From a virus, in IMG/VR virus record IMGVR_UViG_3300022839_000075, positions 1 to 29,213 of that record: a DNA stretch of 29,213 bases, one strand, 5' to 3'. Every line of letters begins with the position of its first letter. The first letter of the stretch is position 1. A model generated the notes under the pieces. It was given only the letters and a program-made list of their open reading frames with translations. It was not told the DNA's origin and ran no database searches. Below are positions 11,159 to 26,042 of the stretch, piece by piece. Position numbers and translations under genes: made by a program.

Positions 11159-13365
11159 TAATTACCTCCGGCTATAGGTATAGTAGTTAAAATTTTATTT
11201 CTTTCAGTTTTATTTTTTGTTCTTTGATTAGATAAGAAATCTGCTTGTTGTTTAGAATATAATTGTTCTACTCCAGGTACATTTTCTTTAAAGTATTGCA
11301 TAGAAGATTCTGTTCCACCATTTTGTCTGTATGACATAGCAAATGACTGAGCTTTATCTTCAAATTCTTTTTTTAAATTCATGTAGTTTGCTCTAACCGT
11401 TTTAGCTGAACCGTAAAATTTAATAATTTCTGTACGTTGAGCAGCATTTTCAATATCTTTTTGAGTCAATCTATCTTCTGCTTTGTTTGCATTCGCAACA
11501 AGATATTTCATTCTTTGTTCAATTAAAGCTAATTTAGTAAATCTTGCTAATTCATCATCAGAAGGTCTTGATAAAAATCCTCCTCCTCTTTCTTTATAAG
11601 AAGCTTTAGCCATTTCGTTTGCTCTTTTCTCTACTTTACCCATGTCTTTATCGTATTCTTTAAGCATTTTTTCAGTTGCTTTCATACCTTCTTCGGTACC
11701 ATCATTATTTCTCATTAAACTTTTTATTTCAGAATCAAAATCAGAACTTGTTATTCCATTTGTCCCCGTAACTTGTTCAAGAGTTCCAAATATATCTTCT
11801 TTTGCTAAACCAAATGCAGCACTAAACGTTCCGTCTTGTGGAAGAGAGTTAATAACAAAATCAATCATTTCAGCTCCTCTTTTATTTTCCTCTAAGTTAG
11901 ATGCATATAAATTCATTTTGTCTGAATTTATTGGTCTTTCATATGCTCCTGCTGTAGCTTCAACAACTTCATTATTTTTATTTCTATGATAAATTTTTCC
12001 GTCTTTACCCATCATTCCTTTAACATTATAGAACTGTCCTGGGTATGCGGGATCTTCTACGCTGAATACTTTATCTCCACCTACAAAACCTGGTCCAGCT
12101 TTTGCAGCTTTTGCCGCCGCTGCTTTAGATTTTAAAAATGATTGAGCTAAAACCATATCTTGATTTTTTTGAGCTAAGGCTATGTTCATCAAATCAGTAC
12201 TCGCAGATTCTAAACCTTGTCCTGCTATATCTACTAATCCAGACAAACCTCTTTGATTACTTTTTCCTGTCATTAATTTTGCTGCAAATTTCATGGCTAT
12301 TAAATTATTTAAATTACCGCTACCGCCTGTCATTTGATCTAGTTCATTTTTAAATGTTTGAAATTCTTTACTTAATGGAGATAGATTATTTGCTTTTTTA
12401 ATTTCATTCTGTCTATTCTTAACCATTCTATTTACTTCATCATCTGTCATTCCTTCAATATTTTGAGTCACTTGATTAATCTGTCCATCTATAGTAGGTG
12501 CAACAGGTTCTGGATCTTGACCGTTTCCGTCAAATCCAGATAGTCTAAGAACATCTGGTAAAGGTACATCAGTTTGTTCAGCTATTTTTTTTAAAGTTTC
12601 CTCTCCTACTGAAGCAAGATTATTTACATCTAATCCAAGTTCTTCTGCAATTGCTATAATTTTATTTGCTTTAGGTAAGTCTTCATTTAATTGAAGTTCT
12701 TCTGGAGTAGAAGGATTTTCAACTCCAATAACTTTAGGTTTAAAGTTTTTTTCCATTTCCTTATAATCTTTTAAATTTTGAGTAACTTTTTTCTTTGGAT
12801 CTGGATTATATTCTGGTTTAGAATAAATTAATCTTTCTTCAATAGATTTTACTCCTCCAGAAACTTGACTTAAATCAGATGCAGTTCCATCTCCTTGCAT
12901 ACCTTGACCAACTAAAGCTGTACCAATAGATCCTACAGCTGTTTTACCTGGATTGTTTATTAATGCTTGAGCAACAGGAGTTGCTCTTGATGCTCCAAAT
13001 TCTCCTAGTTCTCTTATAGCTGCAATTCCAGATCTTCTAGCAGTAGAGGGTAAAAAAGCAGCACCTGGTACAGCGTAAGCAGCACCTTCTAAAAATTGTC
13101 CTGTGTCTCCATCTCTAACTCCTTTGGCCATTTCATTAATACCATAACCTGCAGAACCTGCTTCTAATCCTGTTAGTGCAGTTGAAACTTTTGGTCCCGC
13201 CATTTTATTTCCTAAATATCTAAATGCAGGAGCAGCGACTGCTCTAGCAGTATTTGCTGCTGACATAATTCCCCCAACAAAAAATTTAGGAACAGCTTTA
13301 CTATCAACTACTCTAAGTTGAGTGGCTCTCTTTCTGAATAAAGGTCTCATTAAGGTTTTATCCAT
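11158..13365 (-). CDS. Internal virion protein (large, 735 aa)
   Basis: The protein has an N-terminal basic region, then FFVGGIMSAA (28-37), then an Ala/Gly-rich hydrophobic stretch to about residue 190 with repeated small-residue segments. From about 195 on it is charged and helical, including NKIIAIAEELG, QTDVPLPDVLRLSG, the Q/N-rich NGQINQVTQN-like region and a long helical C-terminal third. It sits between the Gln-rich 361-aa and the 1095-aa proteins, the usual place for podovirus internal core or ejection proteins. No enzymatic motif is seen. The assignment is by context and composition; I do not recognise a named family. Confidence 0.6.
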   Translation of the reverse strand: MDKTLMRPLFRKRATQLRVVDSKAVPKFFVGGIMSAANTARAVAAPAFRYLGNKMAGPKVSTALTGLEAGSAGYGINEMAKGVRDGDTGQFLEGAAYAVPGAAFLPSTARRSGIAAIRELGEFGASRATPVAQALINNPGKTAVGSIGTALVGQGMQGDGTASDLSQVSGGVKSIEERLIYSKPEYNPDPKKKVTQNLKDYKEMEKNFKPKVIGVENPSTPEELQLNEDLPKANKIIAIAEELGLDVNNLASVGEETLKKIAEQTDVPLPDVLRLSGFDGNGQDPEPVAPTIDGQINQVTQNIEGMTDDEVNRMVKNRQNEIKKANNLSPLSKEFQTFKNELDQMTGGSGNLNNLIAMKFAAKLMTGKSNQRGLSGLVDIAGQGLESASTDLMNIALAQKNQDMVLAQSFLKSKAAAAKAAKAGPGFVGGDKVFSVEDPAYPGQFYNVKGMMGKDGKIYHRNKNNEVVEATAGAYERPINSDKMNLYASNLEENKRGAEMIDFVINSLPQDGTFSAAFGLAKEDIFGTLEQVTGTNGITSSDFDSEIKSLMRNNDGTEEGMKATEKMLKEYDKDMGKVEKRANEMAKASYKERGGGFLSRPSDDELARFTKLALIEQRMKYLVANANKAEDRLTQKDIENAAQRTEIIKFYGSAKTVRANYMNLKKEFEDKAQSFAMSYRQNGGTESSMQYFKENVPGVEQLYSKQQADFLSNQRTKNKTERNKILTTIPIAGGN

Positions 13366-13369
13366 AATG

Positions 13370-14455
13370 CTACGCTCTTCCAGTAGTTGCTGCTGCGCTT
13401 TGAAGGGCAGGAGCTTTATTTAAAGCTGAGTAAGTTGCGTATGCTCCGAGTCCAGCACCTGCTGCTTGAGCAAGTGGATTAGTTCCTGGAGAAGTAGATT
13501 GAGTAATAGCAGACTGAGTTGTAGGTCCTGCAGCATACATATTTTTAACAAACTCTGCTCTTTGAAAAGGTTCGTAAGCTCTTTGTAGTTCTGTTTGTCT
13601 TGTAGCATCTAGCGCTTGTTGACCTAATTGTCTTTGTAAACCACCAGCAGCCATTAATTGATTAATGTCTTGTTGAGCCATACCTTGTTGCGCCTGACCC
13701 ATTTGAGCATATTGAGAACCTGCATTCAAATTTGTCTGAGCTTGTAAATTTTGGTTATTTTGAAATGAGTTCATTGCATTTTGAAAAACTGTACCTTGAG
13801 CTTGTCCTATTGCTGATAAAGTTCTTCCACCTAATTCTGCTCTTTGAACACCTTCCCGTCCGCCACCAAATGCTCCGCCCATAACTGCATTTTGACTTAG
13901 TTGGTTTTGTTGCATTTGAGATTGTCTATTAATTTCATCTGTAACGAAAGATGAATAAGGATTTAAATAATTTTGAAATTGTGAAGAAGTAGGATCTAAA
14001 GCTGCCGCATTTTGTGCATTTAATACTGATCCAATACCTGCATTCATAGTATTAGCGCCAACCCCTGTAGTTCCTGATTGAGTAATACCTTGTTTCTCTA
14101 ATGTACCCATTCCTTGTACATTAATTTGAGGAATGTTAACTGGAGTTTTTGCAAGCTCCGCTGCAGTATCCATTAAACCAAGTTTTCTTTCTTCTATCCC
14201 TGGTGCTTCTCTTATATATTGTGTAGTAGTAGAAGGTGCTGCTCCACCACCGCCTCCACCACCAAAATATTGTGGTAAACCTGTTTCTAAATTTATTGTT
14301 CCAGAACCACCGTGGTTAATTAATAATTTTTTTTCAAAAGGATTAATATGAGCTAATTCTGTATCCCCGTTAATACCTTTACTAGCAATTTCTTTACCTA
14401 GTTTTTTAAATAACTCTATTTTTTCTTTTATATTTAATTTTTTAATATCTATCAT
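13370..14455 (-). CDS. Gln/Ala-rich internal virion protein
   Basis: A 361-aa protein with an N-terminal helical 40 residues, a run of seven glycines near residue 70 (YFGGGGGGGA), and a middle with the motif MGGAFGGGREGVQRAELGGR. The second half is dominated by Gln, Ala and Asn (for example QAQTNLNAGSQYAQMGQAQQ), probably a long coiled coil. The 'GGAFGG-REG-QRAELG' motif recurs in internal virion proteins of marine podoviruses in my recollection. It starts with an ATGA overlap from the GNAT-like gene. A structural role in the capsid core or ejection complex is inferred. Confidence 0.6.
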   Translation of the reverse strand: MIDIKKLNIKEKIELFKKLGKEIASKGINGDTELAHINPFEKKLLINHGGSGTINLETGLPQYFGGGGGGGAAPSTTTQYIREAPGIEERKLGLMDTAAELAKTPVNIPQINVQGMGTLEKQGITQSGTTGVGANTMNAGIGSVLNAQNAAALDPTSSQFQNYLNPYSSFVTDEINRQSQMQQNQLSQNAVMGGAFGGGREGVQRAELGGRTLSAIGQAQGTVFQNAMNSFQNNQNLQAQTNLNAGSQYAQMGQAQQGMAQQDINQLMAAGGLQRQLGQQALDATRQTELQRAYEPFQRAEFVKNMYAAGPTTQSAITQSTSPGTNPLAQAAGAGLGAYATYSALNKAPALQSAAATTGRA

Positions 14456-14874
14456 AATTCTTTTTCTACTTGTACATGTGTTGCTGAGTAACCTTTTTCT
14501 TTGAACATAGAGACATAACCCGGCCTTGAAAATATTTCCATTTTTTTACAACCTTGTTCTTTAGCCCATTCAGAAATTTTATCAACATAGTCAAACCACT
14601 CTTTATAACGTTTACCAGTGACAATTTTAGTGTCGCAAACACTGTAATTAGGGTATTTTCTAATTTCAGTAACACAAACACAGAGAACTTCATTAGTTTC
14701 TGTAATAACCACCCAAAGCTGCATTTTACCTTGTTTACAATATTCTTTAATATGTTCTTCACTTACAAATCCTCCCGCTCTGATACACGCTTTTCGAATT
14801 AGATTTTTTACTAAATTCCATATACCGTCTATCTCCTCTTTAGTGAACTGAATCAGTTCTGTTTTTGTTTGCAT
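14452..14874 (-). CDS. GNAT-like acetyltransferase-fold protein
   Basis: A 140-aa protein with QLWVVITE (52-59), then TEIRKYP (69-75), then VTGKRYKEWFDYVDKISEWAKEQGCKKMEIFSRPGY, ending MFKEKGY. This strand-helix order and the WA-x-x-x-GC-x-x-x-E-x-x-x-RPG pattern match the GNAT-fold proteins that many podoviruses carry among internal virion genes, sometimes annotated as gp13-like internal proteins. The acetyl-CoA loop (Q/RxxGxG/A) is not clear, so catalysis is uncertain. It overlaps the upstream gene by 35 nt and the downstream one by ATGA, so it is expressed with the virion proteins. Confidence 0.6.
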   Translation of the reverse strand: MQTKTELIQFTKEEIDGIWNLVKNLIRKACIRAGGFVSEEHIKEYCKQGKMQLWVVITETNEVLCVCVTEIRKYPNYSVCDTKIVTGKRYKEWFDYVDKISEWAKEQGCKKMEIFSRPGYVSMFKEKGYSATHVQVEKEL

Positions 14875-15923: not shown

Positions 15924-16748
15924 TTAGTCAGTCTTTATCAACTCATCCGCAAAACGACCAGTATATTGATGTTCTCCAATATGAGTTATGTGATCCATAA
16001 TCCAAGCATGGCATTCACCTCCAATGTCTTTCCATCTTTGGCAAAAAGCAAAATCTTCTCCTGTGTAAGTATGTTTAATAGGATCAAATTGAGTATCAAA
16101 GAAGTTCCAAAAATCAGGTAGTTTTTCATTCTTACCATTAATTATCTGGTCTTGATCAATTCTCATTTCAGGGTAAGCCTCTATCATTTTAAGGATTACT
16201 TCTCTTTTAATTAACATAAAACCTGTTGGAGAATGCTCTACTTTAATAACTCCATCTTTAATTTTAATAGCAGAATTATTTTCTACTTTCATAGGGTATC
16301 TGTAAAAACCTTTGTTTCTTAAATCTTTAGCTTCTTTAATTTTACCTTCTTTAATCATGTGCATTCCTTTATCCCAATTTATATCTTTTAAAGGATATGG
16401 AATAGAAATAACATCTTTATCACAAGCCACCAATCTTTCTGGAGCAGATTCATTAAAAGAAATATCTGAATCAACAAATAATAAATGAGTAGCATCTTTT
16501 TGTTGTAAAAATGCACTTACACACATGTTTCTTCCTTGAGTAACTAATGAAGATTTCATTATAGAAAACCATAATTTTACATTCTTTTTAAAACAATATT
16601 TTTGTAAATTTAATAAAGCTTGAGTATAATGAATAGAGCATTCACTATGAACAGGTGTTGCTACAAATAAAGAATAGCCTGCTTTTTTCTTAGTGTCCGG
16701 TGTTGATTGTTCTTCGTTAAACCAAATTGGTTCGTGATTTTGCATCAT
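15924..16748 (-). CDS. Glycosyltransferase, GT-A fold
   Basis: A 274-aa protein that begins its fold at LFVATPVHSE (27-36), continues with SLVTQGRN (67-74) and has the metal/nucleotide-sugar DxD motif in LLFVDSDISF (89-98). The YTGEDFAFCQRW region downstream carries the acidic ED-x-x-x-C-x-R acceptor-site pattern of family-2-like transferases. It would move a sugar from a nucleotide donor to an unknown acceptor. There is no membrane segment. It overlaps the preceding GT4-like gene by 32 nt, so the two are made together. It is followed by internal virion genes. Confidence 0.8.
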   Translation of the reverse strand: MMQNHEPIWFNEEQSTPDTKKKAGYSLFVATPVHSECSIHYTQALLNLQKYCFKKNVKLWFSIMKSSLVTQGRNMCVSAFLQQKDATHLLFVDSDISFNESAPERLVACDKDVISIPYPLKDINWDKGMHMIKEGKIKEAKDLRNKGFYRYPMKVENNSAIKIKDGVIKVEHSPTGFMLIKREVILKMIEAYPEMRIDQDQIINGKNEKLPDFWNFFDTQFDPIKHTYTGEDFAFCQRWKDIGGECHAWIMDHITHIGEHQYTGRFADELIKTD

Positions 16749-17661
16749 AAGCTCCTTGTAAAAAGTTAGTCCATTCGTTTTTTCTATTTTCCCAACTATA
16801 AAATTTCTTATAAAAAGATACTTGTGAATCTAATAATTGTTGCATTCCCACTGAATGAAGTTGTTCTGAAATTCCTTCAATTGCATAAGCAAAACATTTA
16901 GCTAAATTTTTGTAATCTCTATCATATTGAACGTAAGTCGGCCACTCTGAACACGTTTCAAACAAAGCTCCGTAATTAGTTACAATTCCATGAAGTCCAC
17001 TTCCTAAAGCTTCGATAGCTGACATACAAGAAGTTTCTTCCCATATATTGGGATAAGCAAATATTTTATATTCACCCATCTTCTTTATTATTTTTTCGTT
17101 AGAAGCATAGCCTATGTAATTTACATTAGGTAATTTTTTAGCTTGTTCATATAATTCTTGATAAGAGGTATCATTAGCTTTTTTAAAAGCATCTCCATAT
17201 ATTTGGGTAGAGGAATAAACATCTAATTCTATTAAAGGATTTTTAATTAACTGCATAGCACCTAGTAATACAGATAGTCCTCTCCATGGAGTAGAGGTAT
17301 ATATTAATTTTATTTTATCACCGTTCTTGTGAGTAGGTTTATCCGCAAATTTCTCTATAGCATTTTTAATAACTACACATTTTTCGGGGGGTACTTTAAA
17401 TGCCATTCTAAACTTTTCTGCACACCAATGAGAGTTAAATACATACCAATCATATTTACTATGATTAGATTTATCTTTAAACCATGGAGCCAGATTACCT
17501 TGGTCATATGAGTTTTGTACCCAAAGAATATTAATTTTATCTTTAGATAAAGGTATTTTTTCTGGAATAGATGTAGTTATCTGAAACTTATCTAACAACG
17601 TATTATCTACGTGTTTATATAACTGAGCATATTGAAGCTCCGTTCCACCTAATGGTTGCAT
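16717..17661 (-). CDS. Glycosyltransferase, GT-B fold (GT4-like)
   Basis: A 314-aa protein. The N-terminus is short: GGTELQ, the glycine loop that normally follows a first beta strand, is at residues 5-10, and an in-frame stop just upstream proves the ATG at 17661 is the furthest start. Other GT4-like features are INILWVQNSYD (43-53), IKNAIE (98-103), STPWRGLSVLL (123-133) and the donor-binding EX7E motif E209-E217 in IWEETSCMSAIEALGSG. The missing first strand is either a family trait, since I recall similar short starts in other phages, or an N-terminal loss. It is coupled to the GT-A enzyme. Confidence 0.8.
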   Translation of the reverse strand: MQPLGGTELQYAQLYKHVDNTLLDKFQITTSIPEKIPLSKDKINILWVQNSYDQGNLAPWFKDKSNHSKYDWYVFNSHWCAEKFRMAFKVPPEKCVVIKNAIEKFADKPTHKNGDKIKLIYTSTPWRGLSVLLGAMQLIKNPLIELDVYSSTQIYGDAFKKANDTSYQELYEQAKKLPNVNYIGYASNEKIIKKMGEYKIFAYPNIWEETSCMSAIEALGSGLHGIVTNYGALFETCSEWPTYVQYDRDYKNLAKCFAYAIEGISEQLHSVGMQQLLDSQVSFYKKFYSWENRKNEWTNFLQGAYDAKSRTNLV

Positions 17662-17671
17662 AAATTAATTG

Positions 17672-17863
17672 TTATTGAGTTTCACCGTCCACAGTCATAG
17701 AAGCTACAGTAATTTCTAAATCTTGTTGAAAATCTTCTGCTGTAGTATCTGTATTTGAATCAGCTACATCTGCATCAAATGCTGCTTTATCAGTGTAGAT
17801 TACACCTGTTCTTTTGTGTTTAACAATTTCTTTTGCTTGTGCTGGTATTCTTTTTATTTCCAT
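17672..17863 (-). CDS. Hypothetical protein, 63 aa
   Basis: A small protein with a basic first third (IKRIPAQAKEIVKHKRTG) and an acidic, Thr/Asp-rich second half (DVADSNTDTTAEDFQQDLE). The first part, ending GVIYTDKAAFDADV, reads as a small beta-hairpin-like unit. No SD precedes the ATG. It lies between the basic 45-aa gene and the glycosyltransferases. I recall similar small proteins in marine phage tail/late regions but have no function to offer. Confidence 0.65.
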   Translation of the reverse strand: MEIKRIPAQAKEIVKHKRTGVIYTDKAAFDADVADSNTDTTAEDFQQDLEITVASMTVDGETQ

Positions 17864-17895
17864 ATATCTTATATAATACTTTTAAGTTTATTTGT

Positions 17896-18033
17896 CTAGC
17901 CCTTACCTTGGCCTTTGTATCTTCGAGTACGTTTTTGTCGTTTCTCATTTTTATTTAAACATTTTTTATGTTGGCGTGGTCCTCTTTTTTTAGGTTGATT
18001 ACGTTCGTGGTGTTCTTTAGATTTTTTAGCCAT
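17896..18033 (-). CDS. 45-aa very basic protein
   Basis: An ATG at 18033 overlaps the stop of the carbamoyltransferase gene (TAATG); TAG is at 17898-17896. By count the 45 residues include 20 Lys or Arg and 4 His, plus one Cys, with KKRGPRQHKK in the middle and RRYKGQGKG at the end. It has no hydrophobic core, so it is probably disordered alone and binds nucleic acid or an acidic partner. I recall similar 'GPRQHKK' mini-proteins in marine phages. Coupling to the upstream gene and a fully open frame support it. Confidence 0.65.
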   Translation of the reverse strand: MAKKSKEHHERNQPKKRGPRQHKKCLNKNEKRQKRTRRYKGQGKG

Positions 18034-19535
18034 TATTTTTTAAAGATTTCATTGCCGATTACTAATATATCGATATTAGAATTATTGAAAAATTTTTTAG
18101 CGTCTTTAATATCAGACATTATTGGTTTTCCGTTAATATTAAAACTTGTGTTCAACACAATAGGGCATCCTGTTTTTTTGTAAAATTCATTAATTAAATT
18201 ATAGTATACTTTATTTGCTTTATCTACACTTTGATATCTACATGTGCCGTCTATATGGGTTATACTTTTTAAATTTTCATTATTAACACTACCTACATAA
18301 AGCATAAAAGGGTTTTCAATATCAGTATTGAAATATTCTTTAACATGTTCTTTTAATATAGACGCACCAAAAGGTCTGTAAGTTTCTCTTTTTTTAATTT
18401 TGTTAATTATATTTTTTCCATTTTTTACTAAAGGGTTAAATAGTAAAGACCTATTCCCTAAAGCCCTAGGACCTATTTCTCCATTACCTTGATACCAGGC
18501 AACGATACACCCTTGTTTTAAATATTCCGCAGTCTCTTTAAAAGTTTTTTCATTTGGCTTAGTTAAAGGTTCTTCGTCAGATTGAATGTATGGAAAATTA
18601 TTTAATTTAAATTTTGGTAAATTATTTTTAATTCTTAAATACTCTAAAGCTCCCAAGGAAAGACCCTCATCATTACAATGGGGAGGTATAATTAAATTTT
18701 TAAATTTATTTTTAAGAGCAGTATTCCATATAACATTTTGAGCAACACCACCAGAGTAAGATATATAGGCATCATAATCTTTATTGGTTACTTCCTCAAA
18801 AAAATTAATTAATATATCTGATACTTTATCGTGGACTGTTCTTATCCAATCTAAAGGCTGCAGTTCTGCTAACAATAGATTTTGTTTATACTCTTTGTAA
18901 TTATTAAAATCAAACAATTTATTTATAGAATATATATTATAATCTAAAGACTTTTTAAATTCTGGTAAAATATTTCCATAAGATTGAAGACCCATTAACT
19001 TTCCTGCAATATCATAAACTTGTTGTGAATTTATCCCAAAAGCTTTACCTACTTTTGCCATAGCTAATCCTAAAGATCCATTTTTTTTTGCATAACCTCT
19101 TTTATGTATTTTGTTATCTATAAGAACAGTCCATGCATTATTAGCGTCTCCAAAACCATCAATTATAATTTCGTATTTTGGTCTTGTTTTATATAGTGGC
19201 CAACAACTTAAAGCATGGCCAAGATGGTGGTTTATTCTATAAACTTTATTTTTTACAGGTAGGTGTTTAAAATTAACAGCTGGATAAAACTCTTCATTAT
19301 CTAAAGGTAAGTTATAAATCCAGGGGTCTACAACAATAGCTATCTCATCTATTTCACTAGCTTTAATATTAAATTTTTCTTTTAAATCTATTTGCCATTC
19401 AAATAAATTGTTATATGCGTGATGTTTCTGTTTGTGTAATCTTTCGGTTTTAAGATAACAAACTTTTTCTCCATCGTATAGAGAAAAGTTACTATCATGC
19501 TCACATAGCCTTAACCCCAACAGCTTTTTAGCCAC
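18033..19535 (-). CDS. O-carbamoyltransferase (NodU/CmcH/TobZ family)
   Basis: A 500-aa two-domain enzyme. The N-terminal Kae1-like domain shows INHHLGHA (101-108, the metal-binding HHxxHA), DGFGD (126-130), a glycine loop ISYSGGVAQN (258-267) and PHCNDEGLSLGA (285-296). The C-terminal YrdC-like domain shows GEIGPRALGNRSLL (352-365), YRPFGASIL (386-394) and LNTSFNINGKPI (461-472). The family makes carbamoyl-AMP from carbamoyl phosphate and ATP and transfers the carbamoyl group to a hydroxyl, known on nodulation factors, antibiotics and, in some phages, on modified cytosine. All key motifs are intact. The GTG start overlaps the previous stop (TAGTG). The acceptor here is unknown; neighbours include two glycosyltransferases. 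Confidence 0.9.
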   Translation of the reverse strand: MAKKLLGLRLCEHDSNFSLYDGEKVCYLKTERLHKQKHHAYNNLFEWQIDLKEKFNIKASEIDEIAIVVDPWIYNLPLDNEEFYPAVNFKHLPVKNKVYRINHHLGHALSCWPLYKTRPKYEIIIDGFGDANNAWTVLIDNKIHKRGYAKKNGSLGLAMAKVGKAFGINSQQVYDIAGKLMGLQSYGNILPEFKKSLDYNIYSINKLFDFNNYKEYKQNLLLAELQPLDWIRTVHDKVSDILINFFEEVTNKDYDAYISYSGGVAQNVIWNTALKNKFKNLIIPPHCNDEGLSLGALEYLRIKNNLPKFKLNNFPYIQSDEEPLTKPNEKTFKETAEYLKQGCIVAWYQGNGEIGPRALGNRSLLFNPLVKNGKNIINKIKKRETYRPFGASILKEHVKEYFNTDIENPFMLYVGSVNNENLKSITHIDGTCRYQSVDKANKVYYNLINEFYKKTGCPIVLNTSFNINGKPIMSDIKDAKKFFNNSNIDILVIGNEIFKK

Positions 19536-19879
19536 TATACATCTTCTCTGTTTATTTCTAATATTGATGCTGTGATATGTAATCTATTTGCGTCTGCAGC
19601 AACTACTTCCAATACTTCATTTTCTTGCATAATTAAAGGTTCATTTATTAATTGCTCTGTAGCATTACCTGCTATAACTTTATTTTTAAATAAAACAATT
19701 CCACCTCCTGCACCAGGATCTCCTGGATATAAAGTAGCTGTTATGTCACTACCATTATTAGTGTCATCACAAACTAAAATAGATTTTATAATAGCTCTAG
19801 AGTTTGAGGGTACAGTATATAAAGTTGTAGCTGTAGCAGCCGTCAAATCAAGTTTTGCGTTTTTATATATATTAGCCAT
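19535..19879 (-). CDS. Small virion-type beta protein, 114 aa
   Basis: A compact beta-rich protein: LDLTAATATTLYTVPSNSRA near the N-terminus, then IIKSILVCDD, GSDITATLYP and a C-terminal ENEVLEVVAADANRLHITAS. This pattern (Y-x-V-P, then I-K-S-I-x-V-x-N/D, then strand repeats) is common in small phage proteins found beside tail genes, in my recollection. I take it as a tail-associated or decoration protein. It starts immediately after the stop of the 54-aa gene (TAA-ATG) and ends overlapping the carbamoyltransferase start. Confidence 0.6.
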   Translation of the reverse strand: MANIYKNAKLDLTAATATTLYTVPSNSRAIIKSILVCDDTNNGSDITATLYPGDPGAGGGIVLFKNKVIAGNATEQLINEPLIMQENEVLEVVAADANRLHITASILEINREDV

Positions 19880-20044
19880 TTAATTTACAAACCAAGTATA
19901 TCTTTCTAATTCTTGTTTTAGGTCTTCTTGAAAAGAACTATTTAATTGATTCTTCATTGTCTCTAATGATTGAAGAAGTTGTTGTTGATTTTGTGGGTCA
20001 TAGTCTACAGTAGGTTCTGGAATAAAATTAGTTACTTTAGCCAT
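19880..20044 (-). CDS. 54-aa tail-region mini-protein
   Basis: An ATG at 20044 overlaps the stop of the large tail gene (TAATG); its TAA abuts the next gene's ATG with no gap. The product begins MAKVTNFIPEPTVDYDP and continues as a Gln/Leu-rich helix (NQQQLLQSLETMKNQL) ending in ERYTWFVN. Very similar small proteins follow the same tail gene in other marine phages, from memory. The helix could pack against the tail hub or act in assembly. Exact fit between two genes on both sides strongly supports translation. Confidence 0.7.
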   Translation of the reverse strand: MAKVTNFIPEPTVDYDPQNQQQLLQSLETMKNQLNSSFQEDLKQELERYTWFVN

Positions 20045-22191
20045 TATCTTCTACCATCGGGTTGTATGTCCGCTCTAAAAGTTCCGTATCTCCAAGTCTC
20101 TCCACTAGATAGATTAGCTATTTTTAAACTAGCCGCTCTTCCTCTAGCACGTGTGTCTATTTTTTGAGTACTTGATGTTACAGAGAAAGGTCCTAAAGAA
20201 GAACTAGCCGCTGTATCTGATGGATAATCTTTTAATAAAATAGTAACTGTTGCAGTTCCATCTAGTCTTTGAAAATCAGGTATAAATCTTCTAACTTTTG
20301 TAAAGTATTCTCCGTCACCTTCTACATGTATCATAAAATCTCCAGTTTCAATATAAGAAGAGATTGCTGTAGTTACTCCCTTATCAACTTGATCTACTCC
20401 CGTCTCATGTATCCAATATGTAGCAGATCCAGAAGCATTTGTCACTCCCTGTATAACTGGGAAAGTAGGTACTCCCGCATCATAAAAAGAAGTAGCATAA
20501 GGTTTATCAAATAAATGAGCATCGTAATAAGAGGTTCTAGCTAAAGAACTTGTATACCAAACTTTTTCTGAATAATTATATGTAACACATCTATCTATTT
20601 CAGTAGATGTACTTGAAGGATAAAACCAATTTATTTCATTAAATAATGAGTTGTGACTAGCGTAAACTATTTTTCCAGAATCATAATTAAAACCTAGATC
20701 TCCTGGGTTAGCTGTATTAAATACAAAATCTTCTACTGAACAAGGTATTTTAACAACTGTTCCATTGTAAGCGTTAAAAGAACCTGCGTCATCCATCCAA
20801 TAAACAACACCATCTACGAAAGCCATAGAATGTGAGCTCATTAAACCACAGTTAGATCCCACCTTTCTAATACTAAAAGTAAAAGGTGCTCCAACATATT
20901 GCATTGTATAAGCTGCAGTATCTGTAAAAACTAACATATAATCTTTTGCTTTTACAGCACCTATAATTTCAGTTCCATCGTCTATTCTAAAAGTACCTGC
21001 TGTATTAACAGAAGTTGGTTGATAATCAGTAAAGTCTTCTTGATCAGAAAATCTTATTAACATTGCATCAAAACTTGAAGTATCTCCAATTGTTGTTTCC
21101 GTTCCTAGATGTATAAAATGTCTGTCTGTGTCTGATACAATTGAAACACTTGTTTTAGTAGGGGCTCCTGACATAAGAGTACATCTAATAGATAAAGCGT
21201 TATTATTATTACTTATAGGTTGCCAAGTAAAAGTTCTTCCTCTTGATATAGTAGCTGTTAGTATTTGTCCAAAATTATCTAAAGCCCAATCAGCTGGATC
21301 TAGTCTAACAGAAGAAGATAAAGATGCTGAGCCCCATCCTGTAAAATATTCTACTCCCGCTAAAGTAGCATGAGCTGATCGTGTTCCAGCCACTGCTCTT
21401 GTAATTCCTGTAAGATCATTCGTAGATATACCAGTGTAAGAAATAAATTCTGCTCCAACTTTAATTATTCCCGTTGTAGGAAAACCTGTTGTTGATGTAA
21501 GTGTAATAGAAGTTCCAGAACCTCCAGTACCTGCAGTGTCGTCTAATAAAGCACCGTTTAAAGTTGTAGTAAGTCCGGATGCTCCTCCGTAAGATGCCGT
21601 ACCAAAACCAAAACCAAATGTTTGTCCAATAGGACCTACTTTAACGTATCTGTTTATAGTACATGCACCTGACGCTGCAACAGTGGTTCCAGCATTAGTT
21701 GCCATAGTTATTGTAAATGTATTAATTGTTGAACTGGTTACTTCAAAAGTTTGATCGGTAAAATTAGCTGCAGTGTACCCTGCACCAACTGGTGGGGTTA
21801 CACTTGTAAAAGTAAAGTAGTCTCCGGCAATCATATTATGCCCCGTTAAGTTAACGGTGACCGTTGGCGAGGTGTTTGTAGTATCAAACGTTCCTCCCGT
21901 TTGCGCTGTCTCTAATGGAGTAATATCGTAATACGCTCCTCCATAATAAATATATAATCCTCTCTGAGAGCCAAGTGCTACATATTTATGGCCATCTAAA
22001 TCTGCCCATTGGTGTTGTGCTCTTACGGCACCCGCTAAGGTATCTGAAGTAGTCGAAGACCATCCTCCTATTTTTTCAGGAAATCCATAACGAAATCTTA
22101 CAAAATCTCCATCTACGTATTGCCCTTCAGCAGCAGTATCTGTAATTTGTTTGTTAAATCCTGGTCTTATATTAATTAAATTTAAAGCCAT
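20044..22191 (-). CDS. Large tail protein, P22 gp10-like (DNA stabilisation / tail hub)
   Basis: A 715-aa beta-rich protein. The N-terminus INIRPGFNKQITD, then EGQYVDGDFVRFRYGFPEKI and GGW, is the recognisable signature of a family in marine and enteric podoviruses annotated as P22 gp10-like packaged-DNA stabilisation or tail proteins. Further blocks such as HQWADLDGHKYVALGSQRGL, an inserted Thr/Gly/Ser-rich domain (about 100-280), AMLIRFSDQEDF and a C-terminal SLKIANLSSGETWRYG fit a beta-propeller-like tail hub. The inserted domain is low-complexity and may be exposed. It precedes several coupled small genes. Confidence 0.7.
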   Translation of the reverse strand: MALNLINIRPGFNKQITDTAAEGQYVDGDFVRFRYGFPEKIGGWSSTTSDTLAGAVRAQHQWADLDGHKYVALGSQRGLYIYYGGAYYDITPLETAQTGGTFDTTNTSPTVTVNLTGHNMIAGDYFTFTSVTPPVGAGYTAANFTDQTFEVTSSTINTFTITMATNAGTTVAASGACTINRYVKVGPIGQTFGFGFGTASYGGASGLTTTLNGALLDDTAGTGGSGTSITLTSTTGFPTTGIIKVGAEFISYTGISTNDLTGITRAVAGTRSAHATLAGVEYFTGWGSASLSSSVRLDPADWALDNFGQILTATISRGRTFTWQPISNNNNALSIRCTLMSGAPTKTSVSIVSDTDRHFIHLGTETTIGDTSSFDAMLIRFSDQEDFTDYQPTSVNTAGTFRIDDGTEIIGAVKAKDYMLVFTDTAAYTMQYVGAPFTFSIRKVGSNCGLMSSHSMAFVDGVVYWMDDAGSFNAYNGTVVKIPCSVEDFVFNTANPGDLGFNYDSGKIVYASHNSLFNEINWFYPSSTSTEIDRCVTYNYSEKVWYTSSLARTSYYDAHLFDKPYATSFYDAGVPTFPVIQGVTNASGSATYWIHETGVDQVDKGVTTAISSYIETGDFMIHVEGDGEYFTKVRRFIPDFQRLDGTATVTILLKDYPSDTAASSSLGPFSVTSSTQKIDTRARGRAASLKIANLSSGETWRYGTFRADIQPDGRR

Positions 22192-22236
22192 AAAAGCATT
22201 ATACCTTAAAATATAACAGAATAACAGAATAGAAGA

Positions 22237-22461
22237 TTACTTAGTTTCTATATTTTGACCCATTATACTAGTGAGTTCAGCCGTTTCCTTATTGAATTTT
22301 TTGTTACATTCTATTGCTAATGAAACAAACATATTAGTACAATGTTTTAAAGATTCAGCGGGTAATAATATTTTTTTCTTTTCCTTAATTATTTCAATCT
22401 CTTCTTCAGTAAATACTATTTCTCCTGAACCATATTTATCGTTTAATTGATTAATTTTCAT
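22237..22461 (-). CDS. Hypothetical protein, 74 aa
   Basis: A charged helical protein: KINQLNDKYGSGEIVFTEEE, then IEIIKEKKKILLPAESLKHC and TNMFVSLAIECNKKFNKE. Two cysteines are present but no motif. AAGGAG lies just ahead of the ATG. It follows the second oxygenase by 8 nt and precedes the large tail protein by about 45 nt. No family is recognised; a small partner of the tail or oxygenase genes is possible. Confidence 0.65.
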   Translation of the reverse strand: MKINQLNDKYGSGEIVFTEEEIEIIKEKKKILLPAESLKHCTNMFVSLAIECNKKFNKETAELTSIMGQNIETK

Positions 22462-22469
22462 AAATCTCC

Positions 22470-23042
22470 TTATCCAATGGTTTCCGCAGTATTATCCGGC
22501 ATTCCCCAGAAGGGTCTTGTGTCCAAATAGCGATCTGCATTCTTACCATTTTTATCTACGTAATGCAAGAAAGCCTGTATATGAAAATCTCCTTGAAATT
22601 CCTTACGGTAGTGAGGTAATTGTCTTCCAAGATATATCACTGCTTCGCCTTTATTTAGGTGTACTGGTTTTTCTTCTATATATATTGGCCATGGTGTACC
22701 GTCATTATTAATATTTAATGTTACACTAATTTCACAAGAACGTCTATCTATGTGACTTGCTAAAGAAGAAAATTTTGTATAGCATCTCCAAAAAGCATAA
22801 GTTGGTAATAGTTCTATACCAGTTTCTTTTTCCATAAGTGGTAATTGTTTAAGCATCAAAGCTTCAATAGTCGGATCTCCATAAAATTTAGAATCGGGTA
22901 TCCCCATCTCTTTTGATTGATCAAAATCTGTAGTATTTGTTCTATGCCTAATTTCACAATAGTTACTTAATAAGTTTATCTCATCTTCAGATAAAAAATT
23001 TTTAATTATTTTATAAGTAAAATCTTTTCCTATAACGCCCAT
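22470..23042 (-). CDS. Fe(II)/2-oxoglutarate oxygenase (second of a tandem pair)
   Basis: A 190-aa dioxygenase-fold protein. The iron triad appears as H97-x-D99 (SHIDRR) and a distal His at H144 in RQLPHYR or H154 in DFHIQAF. Other conserved parts are ISVTLNINNDGTPWPIYIEE (105-124), GEAVIYLGRQLPHYR (132-146) and QAFLHYVD (156-163), a pattern I know from small phage oxygenases. They use O2 and 2-oxoglutarate to hydroxylate proteins, nucleic acids or small molecules; the substrate here is unknown. It overlaps the first oxygenase by 13 nt, so the two are co-translated and probably act together. Confidence 0.8.
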   Translation of the reverse strand: MGVIGKDFTYKIIKNFLSEDEINLLSNYCEIRHRTNTTDFDQSKEMGIPDSKFYGDPTIEALMLKQLPLMEKETGIELLPTYAFWRCYTKFSSLASHIDRRSCEISVTLNINNDGTPWPIYIEEKPVHLNKGEAVIYLGRQLPHYRKEFQGDFHIQAFLHYVDKNGKNADRYLDTRPFWGMPDNTAETIG

Positions 23043-23626
23043 GCTACTACCGAATACCTTTCTCCCTCAGTCACAGGCATGACACAGTGAGGGTATAAAT
23101 AATTGCTAGGCCATATTATCATTCTATTTTCTTTCTTTTCAATTGTTGTAATTTTTTCTGAGTTAGGGTATTTAAAACACAGGTCACCTCCCTCGTAATT
23201 ATCATTAATCATAAATATACAACTAAATTGTCTTGGAATTTTTGGGCTATGATCTGTATGAAATTTGTAATGTCCCCCTTCTCCATACTTTAAAACTTGT
23301 ATATCATTAATAACAAATGAATTAGAAATTTTATGAAAGTATTGATAGTTAGTAATACAAATTTTTAGATGTTTTACTAAATAATTACACCATAAAACGT
23401 CAGTGTAAGAAGTTGTATTAATATTATTTAAACCCCAAGAACCTACTTTTCTTATCTTTTCATCTAAAATAGGTTTGTCATCACCTAGTATTGATGCCCC
23501 TTCAAATTTATTAGAATCTTTACATATTTTTTTAAACGACTCTAAAGTTTTATTTGGTATGACATCATTAAAAACTGTAATATATTTATGTAAATCATAA
23601 TTTACTTCCATGTTTTTTTTCTCCAA
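23030..23626 (-). CDS. Prolyl-4-hydroxylase-like Fe(II)/2-oxoglutarate oxygenase
   Basis: A 198-aa protein matching the P4H catalytic core. Iron ligands are H123-x-D125 in GGHYKFHTDHSP and H180 in WPSNYLYPHCVMPV; the 2-oxoglutarate-binding Arg is R190 in GERYSVVAWAL. The jelly-roll strands IFMINDNYEGGDLCF are present. All residues needed for catalysis appear intact. Such enzymes hydroxylate proline or other side chains; they are frequent in marine phages with unknown targets. It overlaps the upstream 248-aa gene by 25 nt and the second oxygenase by 13 nt, forming a three-gene coupled unit behind the tail-fibre genes. Confidence 0.85.
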   Translation of the reverse strand: MEKKNMEVNYDLHKYITVFNDVIPNKTLESFKKICKDSNKFEGASILGDDKPILDEKIRKVGSWGLNNINTTSYTDVLWCNYLVKHLKICITNYQYFHKISNSFVINDIQVLKYGEGGHYKFHTDHSPKIPRQFSCIFMINDNYEGGDLCFKYPNSEKITTIEKKENRMIIWPSNYLYPHCVMPVTEGERYSVVAWAL

Positions 23627-24348
23627 AATAATTTTTTATAATTATGTACTATATGTTTTAGCATAAAAAACCTGTCTTCTAAATATTTTTTGTCACTTTT
23701 AGTTTTAATTTTCATTTTCCAATTTTCTCTTTTAAAAGGTATGCATTGAACATAAGGAGTTCCTCTTTCAATAATTGTATCTAGTTCATTATACTTATCA
23801 CCATTTATAACAATTGGAAAATTTACTTCATTTTTAAAAGTATCTGTATCAACTATACCAGCAATAATTGAAAAACGATCATCTGCATTATTTAAAGGTG
23901 GGACAAAAAGAGTAGAATATCCAGGCGGTGTTGTTATTATCCATGGATTTAAAATTTTATGAAAAGCTAACTTTTTATTTTTTTCTACTAAAGGGCTTCC
24001 CTCTAATTGTTGGATAGAATGACACTCTGGTCTTCCTCGATAATTAATATTTATTCTTTCAGCAAGGCTATTCATCATTTGTTGAGCTGAATCAAAACCA
24101 GTTTTTTTCTCCCCGTCAATTTCAACATTGTGTTTTATTCTATAATCGGTTGCTATTTTTAAAAGATACCCAGAGGTGAGTGTATCTAAAAAAGGCATAC
24201 AACCTTTTACAGTCTGATTTTCGTAACTATGTGTAAGATTTTTATACCATTCTGGTATATTTGTTTTTGTAGGAACTGGTAAATTATCTTGATTGTTTCT
24301 TATAAATTCTTTACTCGCTGAAAAAGTTATTATATTATCTAACATCAT
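23602..24348 (-). CDS. Uncharacterised marine-phage family protein, 248 aa
   Basis: The motif order is IPEWYKNL (33-40), VKGCMPFLDTLTSGYLLKIA (48-67), then FHKILNPWIITTPPGYSTLF, FSIIAGIVDTDTFKNEVNFP, IERGTPYVQCIPFKRENW and a basic C-terminus with WRKK. I recognise this as a widespread family in cyanophages and other marine phages, always listed as unknown (possibly the DUF6065 family; I am unsure of the number). It often lies near oxygenase genes. No catalytic signature is obvious; the compact conserved aromatic and proline pattern suggests a beta-rich binding protein. Here it is coupled to two oxygenases. Confidence 0.65.
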   Translation of the reverse strand: MMLDNIITFSASKEFIRNNQDNLPVPTKTNIPEWYKNLTHSYENQTVKGCMPFLDTLTSGYLLKIATDYRIKHNVEIDGEKKTGFDSAQQMMNSLAERININYRGRPECHSIQQLEGSPLVEKNKKLAFHKILNPWIITTPPGYSTLFVPPLNNADDRFSIIAGIVDTDTFKNEVNFPIVINGDKYNELDTIIERGTPYVQCIPFKRENWKMKIKTKSDKKYLEDRFFMLKHIVHNYKKLFWRKKTWK

Positions 24349-24363
24349 AGATGTTTAGCACAT

Positions 24364-24804
24364 TTACGGGATTTGTAAAAGATTTAAATAAGTAATTCCA
24401 TTATCTTGACAATATTTTTCCCAGTTAACAATAGGGTATGTTACAGTTGAAGTATCAAAAGTATCTAAATAATTACTATAGCTTACAAACTGAGTATATA
24501 AAGTTTTAGCTTGAGTATTGGCGTTTGCATTTTGAATAAAGAGATCAATATTCCATTTCAGTGTCTTTAAATATTGAAACAATTCCTCTGCATTTGAAAT
24601 TTCTCCAGGATTTAGATTGTCAATAAATGTAATGGTACTTCCATTTATATTAAATAGATCTATATGTAATTTAAATTTTATAAAATCAGAATCACTAATA
24701 TCTACTACTGAATGAGGTGTATTTAAAGCAGTTAACTCATTTTTTTCAGTTTCGTTTGCTGCGATTCTTAGTAAATTATTATTAAGTGTAATTGCGTAAG
24801 CCAT
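24364..24804 (-). CDS. Hypothetical protein behind tail fibre, 146 aa
   Basis: A soluble protein starting AYAITLNNNLLRIAANETEK, then helical with many Asn and Leu, ending in an aromatic stretch YPIVNWEKYCQDNGITYLNL. Its start overlaps the stop of the tail-fibre gene (TAATG). Genes directly after a fibre with such coupling are often fibre-assembly chaperones, but I see no motif of the known Tfa families. Function is inferred from position only. Confidence 0.65.
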   Translation of the reverse strand: MAYAITLNNNLLRIAANETEKNELTALNTPHSVVDISDSDFIKFKLHIDLFNINGSTITFIDNLNPGEISNAEELFQYLKTLKWNIDLFIQNANANTQAKTLYTQFVSYSNYLDTFDTSTVTYPIVNWEKYCQDNGITYLNLLQIP

Positions 24805-26042
24805 TATGCGTTCCCATCATCAAAGTAAAATAGTCCACCAGCTCCACCTGCATCAGAAGGAGTTGGACTCGGACCACCATTATCTGGTCCTTCAAAATTA
24901 GTACCAGTCCCTGTGCCTGCATTTACAATAAACATTGTTCTCTTAGGTAATTCAATTCCACCTGGAGCTGTACCCGCTGCACCTGGGTTTGCTCTAGTCG
25001 GTTGAAAAGCAGGGCCACCCCTTGCTCCACCACTTCCACCATTTGCAGTAAAACTTGAAACTGTTGATGCAGAACCTGCGTTACCATCACCACCGCCAGT
25101 ACTTGGGCTACCTTTTGTTCCCCCAGCACCTAATGAGTAAGGAACAGCCGCCCCGCCTGTAACTGGACCAGAATAAAATCCTAAACCACCATTTCCACCA
25201 GAACCACCGTGTCTTCCAGGTGCCTGTGTTGAAAATCCACCAGCACCACCGCCTGCACCACAAAGGTACGCATAAAAATTATTTGCAGCTGGATTTGCAG
25301 TTACGTTACCACTATTAGGGCCAATCTCAGAAAAATGCATAACATAAGCTCCATCTCCACCGGCTCCACTTGCAGCAGCAGTCAGTCGTCCTTGAGCATC
25401 TACAGTTATGTTTGCAGTTGTATAAGCACCTGCAGTTACTGCAGTGTTAGATAATTTATCTGGCGTAATTGAATCGTCAGCAATTTTAGCAGTTGTAATT
25501 TGTAAATCTGAAACTTTAGCAGTTGTAATTTGATTGTCTGAAATTTTTGCAGTTGTAACTGCGTTGTCTGCTATTTGTGCAGTTGAAATTGTTCCAGTAA
25601 TATTTGCAGCCGCAATAGTTCCACCTAAAGTATCTAAAGATATTTCATTTAAATTTGTTCCATCTGAATATGCAGCAAATATTTTTGCAGCATTTAAAGT
25701 AAAGCCCGTTCCACTAGCAGTTTTAATAACTAGGTTAGCTGGGTTAGTTAAACCACTACAATCAAAAATATAAAATTTTTCAATTCCATCTGGAATAGTA
25801 CAAATTGTACTTGCTGCAATAGTTGCAGTAGCAAATTTAATAACCATATTTCTAGCATTAGACAAAGTTGCGTCTGTCATAGCAAGAGCTAAAATTGAAC
25901 CTGAATTTAGTGTTACTTGTTCAAAACCTGCAACAGATTGTTGAATTAAATTTATATTTTGATTAGTTTTATCTCCCCAAGTACCGGCGTTTTCGCCAGT
26001 CACCATAAGTTCTAAACCGAGATCTGAATAAGCTGATGTCAT
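24804..26042 (-). CDS. Tail fibre / receptor-binding protein with Gly-rich tip
   Basis: A 412-aa protein. The N-terminus SDLGLELMVTGENAGTWG (5-22) is the conserved virion-attachment end of many marine phage fibres. The middle has an ITTAKISDNQ-type repeat (four 10-residue units). From about residue 245 to the end it is glycine-rich (GAGGGAGGF, HGGSGGNGGLG, GGSGGARGG), resembling the polyglycine-II tip domains of T-even gp38-type adhesins. Near the C-terminus is GGPSPTPSDAGG, a Pro/Ser/Thr-rich loop. It presumably trimerises and binds the host surface. An AGGAG site lies upstream of the ATG. Confidence 0.8.
   Translation of the reverse strand: MTSAYSDLGLELMVTGENAGTWGDKTNQNINLIQQSVAGFEQVTLNSGSILALAMTDATLSNARNMVIKFATATIAASTICTIPDGIEKFYIFDCSGLTNPANLVIKTASGTGFTLNAAKIFAAYSDGTNLNEISLDTLGGTIAAANITGTISTAQIADNAVTTAKISDNQITTAKVSDLQITTAKIADDSITPDKLSNTAVTAGAYTTANITVDAQGRLTAAASGAGGDGAYVMHFSEIGPNSGNVTANPAANNFYAYLCGAGGGAGGFSTQAPGRHGGSGGNGGLGFYSGPVTGGAAVPYSLGAGGTKGSPSTGGGDGNAGSASTVSSFTANGGSGGARGGPAFQPTRANPGAAGTAPGGIELPKRTMFIVNAGTGTGTNFEGPDNGGPSPTPSDAGGAGGLFYFDDGNA
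25471..25590 (-). repeat. Four 30-bp tandem repeats in the tail-fibre gene
   Basis: Units at 25471-25500, 25501-25530, 25531-25560 and 25561-25590 share GCAGTTGTAA-type cores at identical phase and encode ten-residue TTAKI(S/A)D-like units. They would add length to the fibre shaft and are prone to unit gain or loss by slippage. Confidence 0.75.

Follow-up and report, generated by a model that had tools for sequence, protein, structure and literature searches.

The 29,213-base stretch analysed here, IMG/VR record IMGVR_UViG_3300022839_000075 (hereafter the window), is a virus fragment whose closest named relatives are the Pelagibacter phages HTVC027P and HTVC023P; it is a piece of an HTVC023P-type pelagipodophage, with SAR11-type bacteria of the ocean as hosts. 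Close to its tail fibre gene lie two 2-oxoglutarate (2OG)/Fe(II) oxygenases (P4H and OXY2), an O-carbamoyltransferase (CARB) and two glycosyltransferases (GTB and GTA). A first-pass annotation had placed these five enzymes within 8 kb, and all five were confirmed, on the minus strand and with a total span of 7.7 kb (Table 1). It had further proposed that together they hydroxylate, glycosylate and then carbamoylate a virion protein; the linking of predicted hydroxylation and carbamoylation with the fibre holds up in our analysis, whereas the glycosyltransferases do not belong to the unit. The genes overlap by 25 bases (h23602 and P4H), 13 bases (P4H and OXY2), 1 base (h19535 and CARB) and 32 bases (GTB and GTA), and, judged by such overlaps and short gaps, h23602-P4H-OXY2, h19535-CARB and GTB-GTA are predicted to be coupled groups. 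Promoter and terminator scans of the region gave no more than chance. As a fuller copy of the window we used IMGVR_UViG_3300022865_000009 (53.8 kb, possibly incomplete itself), because every tested window gene from 28549 leftward is present in it at 99-100% protein identity. Beyond the window, this record carries more 2OG genes, at 13291-14259 (the second one weaker) and 17919-19033.

Table 1. Genes of the enzyme and fibre region of the window, with the basis of each assignment.
Feature	Coordinates	Strand	Basis
GTA, GT-A-like glycosyltransferase	15924..16748	minus	phrog_1574 (E 2.6e-37); DSD invariant
GTB, GT-B glycosyltransferase (group 1)	16717..17661	minus	PF00534 (E 7e-9)
CARB, NodU/TobZ-type O-carbamoyltransferase	18033..19535	minus	PF16861 (1e-56), PF02543 (8e-16), phrog_1601 (1e-152), TobZ alignment
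TAIL, tail/virion protein between cassette and CARB	20044..22191	minus	phrog_3287
h22237, small cassette protein	22237..22461	minus	follows OXY2 in most loci; inverts with cassette in L026
OXY2, second 2OG/Fe(II) oxygenase	22470..23042	minus	phrog_2954; AlphaFold2, Foldseek, iron triad
P4H-like 2OG/Fe(II) oxygenase	23030..23626	minus	PF13640 (E 1.3e-18); C-terminal half of ACG-2014f fusion
h23602, cassette member	23602..24348	minus	phrog_7084; overlaps P4H gene
Small protein after fibre	24364..24804	minus	no family match
Tail fibre	24804..26042	minus	phrog_31104/28766; conserved N-terminal part

CARB contains both the Carbam_trans_N and Carbam_trans_C domains and the HHxxH and C-terminal motifs of the NodU/TobZ family, and its residues H103, H104, H107, D126, R357, R362 and N462 are invariant in 15 sequences. 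It is an optional gene that occupies a slot between h19535 and h17672. P4H, the oxygenase that the first-pass annotation credited with all catalytic residues, indeed has the complete iron triad and the distal Arg (HTD, PH and R in the alignment), and OXY2 still keeps the triad, lacking only the usual 2OG-binding Arg. Although OXY2 has no Pfam match, its AlphaFold2 model (predicted local distance difference test score 93) adopts the double-stranded beta-helix fold, and the top Foldseek matches are prolyl hydroxylases (E from 3e-7, probability 1.00), the best solved matches including bacterial PKHD and prolyl hydroxylases, PHD2 and a chlorovirus collagen prolyl hydroxylase. The comparison relies on structure in place of hhalign, which aligned OXY2 with P4H weakly (E 0.011); PDB sequence searches with profiles of GTA, h23602 and OXY2 returned nothing usable. 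The iron triad of OXY2, H97-x-D99...H144, is invariant in 32 relatives. At the canonical position of the 2OG-anchoring Arg/Lys, about 10 residues past the distal His, the window has His and the relatives have other residues; R146, two residues past the distal His, is invariant and may substitute for it. Because OXY2 lacks the canonical Arg, we regard its activity as probable rather than certain.

These results bear on a published label, as OXY2 matches phrog_2954, annotated as ferrochelatase, with an E value of 6e-47. None of the 32 OXY2 homologues, including the HTVC023P "putative ferrochelatase", matched the ferrochelatase Pfam models at E up to 1, and a 362-residue "ferrochelatase" of cyanophage ACG-2014f proved to be an OXY2-P4H fusion, 36% identical to OXY2 over its first half and 30% to P4H over its second. 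The fold, the invariant HxD...H and this natural fusion with P4H rule out a ferrochelatase and identify phrog_2954 as a 2OG oxygenase. The family is a headline auxiliary gene of two papers, one reporting that every ferrochelatase adjoins a 2OG oxygenase (mSystems 2022, PMC9599517) and the other a seasonal enrichment of phrog2954 "ferrochelatase" (ISME J 2024, PMC11561400). The pair described in the former therefore consists of two oxygenases in tandem, and the gene in the latter needs renaming. Another marine-phage "ferrochelatase", phrog_3531, is likewise a 2OG oxygenase. In addition, phrog_274 ("DNA endonuclease V") and phrog_2297 ("DNA endonuclease") match 2OG oxygenases here, and their PHROG labels are probably wrong.

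Next, we compared the region gene by gene across 80 tail-anchored and 22 CARB-anchored loci. The h23602-P4H-OXY2-h22237 cassette travels as one piece, and in one relative (L026) the whole of it is inverted. A permutation test on 16 non-redundant loci, four of them with CARB (relatedness ignored; lowest possible P about 0.0006), showed that the presence of CARB follows the alleles of the cassette: identity within CARB-positive loci versus identity to CARB-negative loci was 74 versus 48% for OXY2 (P 0.001), 66 versus 42% for P4H (P 0.00075) and 74 versus 51% for h23602 (P 0.003). CARB was not tracked by TAIL (P 0.34), GTB (P 0.27), GTA (P 0.71) or h27531 (P 0.82), the range for these four and h17672 being 0.11-0.82. 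Relatives with other backbones (L057/L016/L014 and L091) are 78-89% identical to the window in h23602, P4H and OXY2 and 82-93% in CARB. The clearest contrast is within L091, where the backbone is 56-67% and TAIL 63% identical to the window, yet the fibre reaches 75%, h23602 82%, P4H 78%, OXY2 85% and CARB 82%; TAIL is thus not part of the oxygenase-CARB unit. The Gly-rich C-terminal tip of the window's fibre (about residues 240-412) is also shared by the few relatives that have CARB, with tip identities of 62-82% in the CARB-bearing L014 and L091 and 24-48% (last three segments) in the backbone-like L011 and L027. Fibre tip and partner genes accordingly vary together against a conserved backbone, as in an exchangeable host-recognition module. 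Together, these data support the view that the oxygenases and CARB are a linked unit that goes with the fibre tip, and they bear out the connection between oxygenases, carbamoyltransferase and fibre that had been suspected from the window alone.

To set CARB in a wider context, a profile search yielded 80 loci, nearly all of them new and more diverse, of which 77 were non-redundant. Across these 77, 2OG genes occur at 0.36 per kb in the 1.5 kb nearest to CARB and thin out to 0.03 per kb at a distance of 6-8 kb. Where the flank was sufficient, a 2OG gene stood directly beside CARB in 21 of 40 loci, compared with 10.5 +/- 2.1 expected when genes are drawn at random from these loci (about 5e-4); without the window's close relatives the figures were 17 of 35 versus 8.6 +/- 2.0. 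Since the 2OG profiles had been built from the same loci, an independent Pfam count was made of 83 CARB neighbours, and its list is headed by 2OG-FeII_Oxy_5 (17) and Oxy_3 (14; overlap possible). Glycosyltransferase group 1 was found in 4 and tryptophan halogenase in 3, halogenase genes adjoining CARB in three loci. The co-occurrence statistics that the first-pass annotation had called for thus come out above local background for 2OG genes and CARB, and show no enrichment of glycosyltransferases near CARB across diverse phages.

In loci that reach far enough, the position of the GTB-GTA pair is constant, whether CARB is present or not. GTB is 94-97% identical to the window in nine relatives (L009, L015, L023, L024, L026, L027, L044, L048 and L051), all with no CARB in the slot; where their upstream region is visible, fibre tips and cassettes differ, the visible cassettes being 34-62% identical. 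The two genes form a constant pair of the backbone rather than a step that the unit requires, so a coupling of glycosyltransferases to CARB was rejected, and with it their supposed place as the middle step of a chain. The assignment of GTA as GT-A is weaker than that of GTB as GT-B group 1: GTA has no Pfam match of its own above the cut-off, and 16 of 21 relatives match PF03452 (Anp1) weakly, the DSD being invariant. Further along the window, a GNAT-like gene (14452-14874) is 99-100% identical in L015 and L051 and about 30-35% in other relatives of similar backbone, and was therefore exchanged on its own.

The remaining cassette genes are less readily assigned. The model of h23602 matches dUTPase-like folds in Foldseek (E about 1e-3, with a large root-mean-square deviation), and its GIVDTD motif resembles dUTPase motif III; we tentatively describe it as a dUTPase-like beta fold. 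Its phrog_7084 relatives in haloarchaeal tailed viruses (L109, L110 and L112) come last in the block of tail genes and adjoin ribonucleotide reductase or thymidylate synthase genes. For the small protein that follows the fibre, a role as fibre chaperone is a guess; h23602 is present in 22 of 24 loci that have a protein of this type and in none of 16 that lack it.

How might these genes work together? In the mechanism we propose, a swappable host-recognition module would comprise the fibre tip, its follower protein, the translationally coupled phrog_7084-P4H-OXY2 cassette and, optionally, CARB. The two oxygenases are predicted to hydroxylate side chains, and CARB to add a carbamoyl cap to a hydroxyl, whether newly made or carried by a sugar. 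The likeliest substrate would be the adhesin of the same module, that is, the Gly/Pro-rich fibre tip, whose stability or receptor binding the modification would tune, and the downstream glycosyltransferase pair would serve a constant backbone function outside the obligate steps. From the observed enzyme families, folds, co-segregation and neighbourhood enrichment we infer the order of the reactions, their substrate and their purpose, as well as the hydroxylation or carbamoylation of a virion protein itself. The behaviour of the oxygenases and CARB suggests that they chemically tailor the fibre tip or its receptor. Our preferred, still tentative, interpretation is an adhesin-linked hydroxylation-carbamoylation module that can be swapped for host recognition and has the fibre tip as its likeliest substrate. 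The co-segregation speaks for the fibre as target, as do the isolates HTVC033P and Mosig, in which the same enzymes lie close to tail-fibre genes. The narrower version, in which hydroxylation of proline (or another residue) and O-carbamoylation mature the tip, and this tailoring is exchanged along with the tip allele and has a part in setting host range, we consider distinctly unlikely; to our knowledge, such a tip would be the first carbamoylated virion protein.

Several observations weigh against the fibre-tip module. Most cassettes lack CARB; some cyanophages carry CARB after the capsid gene with no 2OG genes near; and in Mosig the genes around it carry annotations as sugar, cofactor and methyl-transfer enzymes. 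No more than four non-redundant loci with CARB entered a permutation that ignores phylogeny. A simple proline-loop target fares poorly as well. The fibre loop GGPSPTPSDAGG (the PSPTPS loop), put forward earlier as a glycosylation-like target, reads GGPTTTPSEQGG and GGPNPVPGAVGG in the closest relatives with CARB, so that Pro is kept and Ser/Thr is not. Nor does fibre composition follow the cassette, either for Gly-rich fibres (P 0.10) or for proline content (6.4 versus 6.0%, P 0.30), in a test that is weak because the "cassette-absent" group includes loci with OXY2 elsewhere; composition was accordingly rejected as a target signature. Gly-rich fibre paralogues in three other phages with 2OG genes close by (L002, L076 and L083) share a GNTPPVSPPQGNPGG-type motif that recurs although the rest of their sequence varies.

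The main rival is a target on the host surface: the enzymes would alter the receptor of this fibre tip, progeny would avoid debris or reinfection, and the genes would therefore be swapped with the tip. We regard this as possible, if on the unlikely side. It accounts for the same co-segregation, and CARB elsewhere lies among genes annotated as sugar-modifying; by sequence motifs, the tail-proximal region of relatives has sulfotransferase-like, methyltransferase-like and glycosyltransferase-like genes, and the 53.8-kb record carries phrog_3347, labelled "galactose-3-O-sulfotransferase" (16380-16949). Against it, the oxygenase folds are closest to prolyl, that is protein, hydroxylases, and the genes lie among those for structural proteins, which makes late expression probable. 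The tail-proximal sulfotransferase-like genes (L032:3940-4533, L038:8482-9051, L096:3-506 and L099:1087-1629) were recognized by their P-loop-like HIPHTGG/HIPKNGG/QKNGCTS starts.

Alternatively, there may be no common pathway, the hypervariable tail-adjacent region gathering unrelated accessory genes. Fibre, cassette and CARB are close together, and recombination could move them jointly without any common function. Metaviromes have already revealed islands that contain both fibre genes and Fe(II) oxygenases (PMC3909814), and the slots are occupied by many different genes. We nevertheless hold this to be unlikely, as CARB and the cassette co-segregate in L091 across an intervening TAIL of different ancestry, 2OG genes are enriched beside CARB in many unrelated loci, and the two oxygenases are fused in ACG-2014f.

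The full three-step chain, for which one could cite the presence of all enzyme classes in one late block and the collagen-modifying enzymes of mimivirus, including a collagen glucosyltransferase (PMC9546862), is improbable given a glycosyltransferase pair that is constant and independent of both CARB and the cassette. Most improbable is DNA base modification, in which a hydroxymethyl base produced by a 2OG enzyme would then be glycosylated or carbamoylated: a phage-type carbamoyltransferase does act on 5-hydroxymethylcytosine (MetaGPA, PMC8670742) and h23602 tentatively has a dUTPase-like fold, but a thymidylate-synthase-type gene (dCMP hydroxymethylase family) is absent from the possibly incomplete 53.8-kb record and from 47 of 50 CARB records, no DNA C5-methyltransferase (PF00145) was found in the 53.8-kb record, the oxygenase folds are closest to prolyl hydroxylases, and glycosyltransferase group 1 stands beside CARB in unmodified contigs (PMC8670742). 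We rejected DNA modification by these enzymes as unlikely on the missing genes, and the doubt already voiced about it from the window extends to the fuller copy, in which the region of the window is found unaltered. In the 41-kb L067 record, whose locus has neither CARB nor the cassette, one 323-residue frame does contain a C5 DNA methylase domain.

Among marine phage genes that still lack an explanation, those for 2OG oxygenases rank with the most frequent, and the enzymes tend to be interpreted as helpers of metabolism or as part of DNA repair. Their co-inheritance with a fibre tip and CARB offers a specific and testable alternative, namely that they serve host recognition.

Compared with known systems, CARB shares both domains and the conserved motifs, aligned with TobZ, with the TobZ/GdmN/NodU O-carbamoyltransferases but is viral and shorter (500 residues). 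The MetaGPA 5-hydroxymethylcytosine carbamoyltransferase (PMC8670742) is a phage enzyme with PF02543 and PF16861, as in the window; unlike in that system, CARB here has no thymidylate-synthase-type partner and its neighbours are 2OG oxygenases. Fold and iron triad are common to the window's oxygenases and known prolyl hydroxylases (Pseudomonas putida P4H/EF-Tu, 4iw3; PBCV-1 vCPH, 5c5t; PHD2), P4H also keeping their 2OG-binding Arg and OXY2 lacking it; the window's fibre is Gly-rich but not collagen-like Gly-X-Y. The pelagiphage "ferrochelatase"-2OG pair (PMC9599517, PMC11561400) is the same gene pair as phrog_2954 and the adjacent 2OG oxygenase of the window, and, with the "ferrochelatase" itself a 2OG oxygenase, nothing in this protein supports a heme reading. 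Finally, metaviromic islands (PMC3909814), which already count Fe(II) oxygenases among their genes, and the fibre-chaperone modules of Alteromonas phages (PMC10579305) swap a variable fibre-tip region with its cognate partners, as the window does, whereas here the partners are a tandem 2OG pair and a CARB whose presence follows the cassette type. The exchangeable host-recognition island is already known (PMC3909814, PMC10579305); the new element is the presence of cognate oxygenases together with a carbamoyltransferase in such an island.

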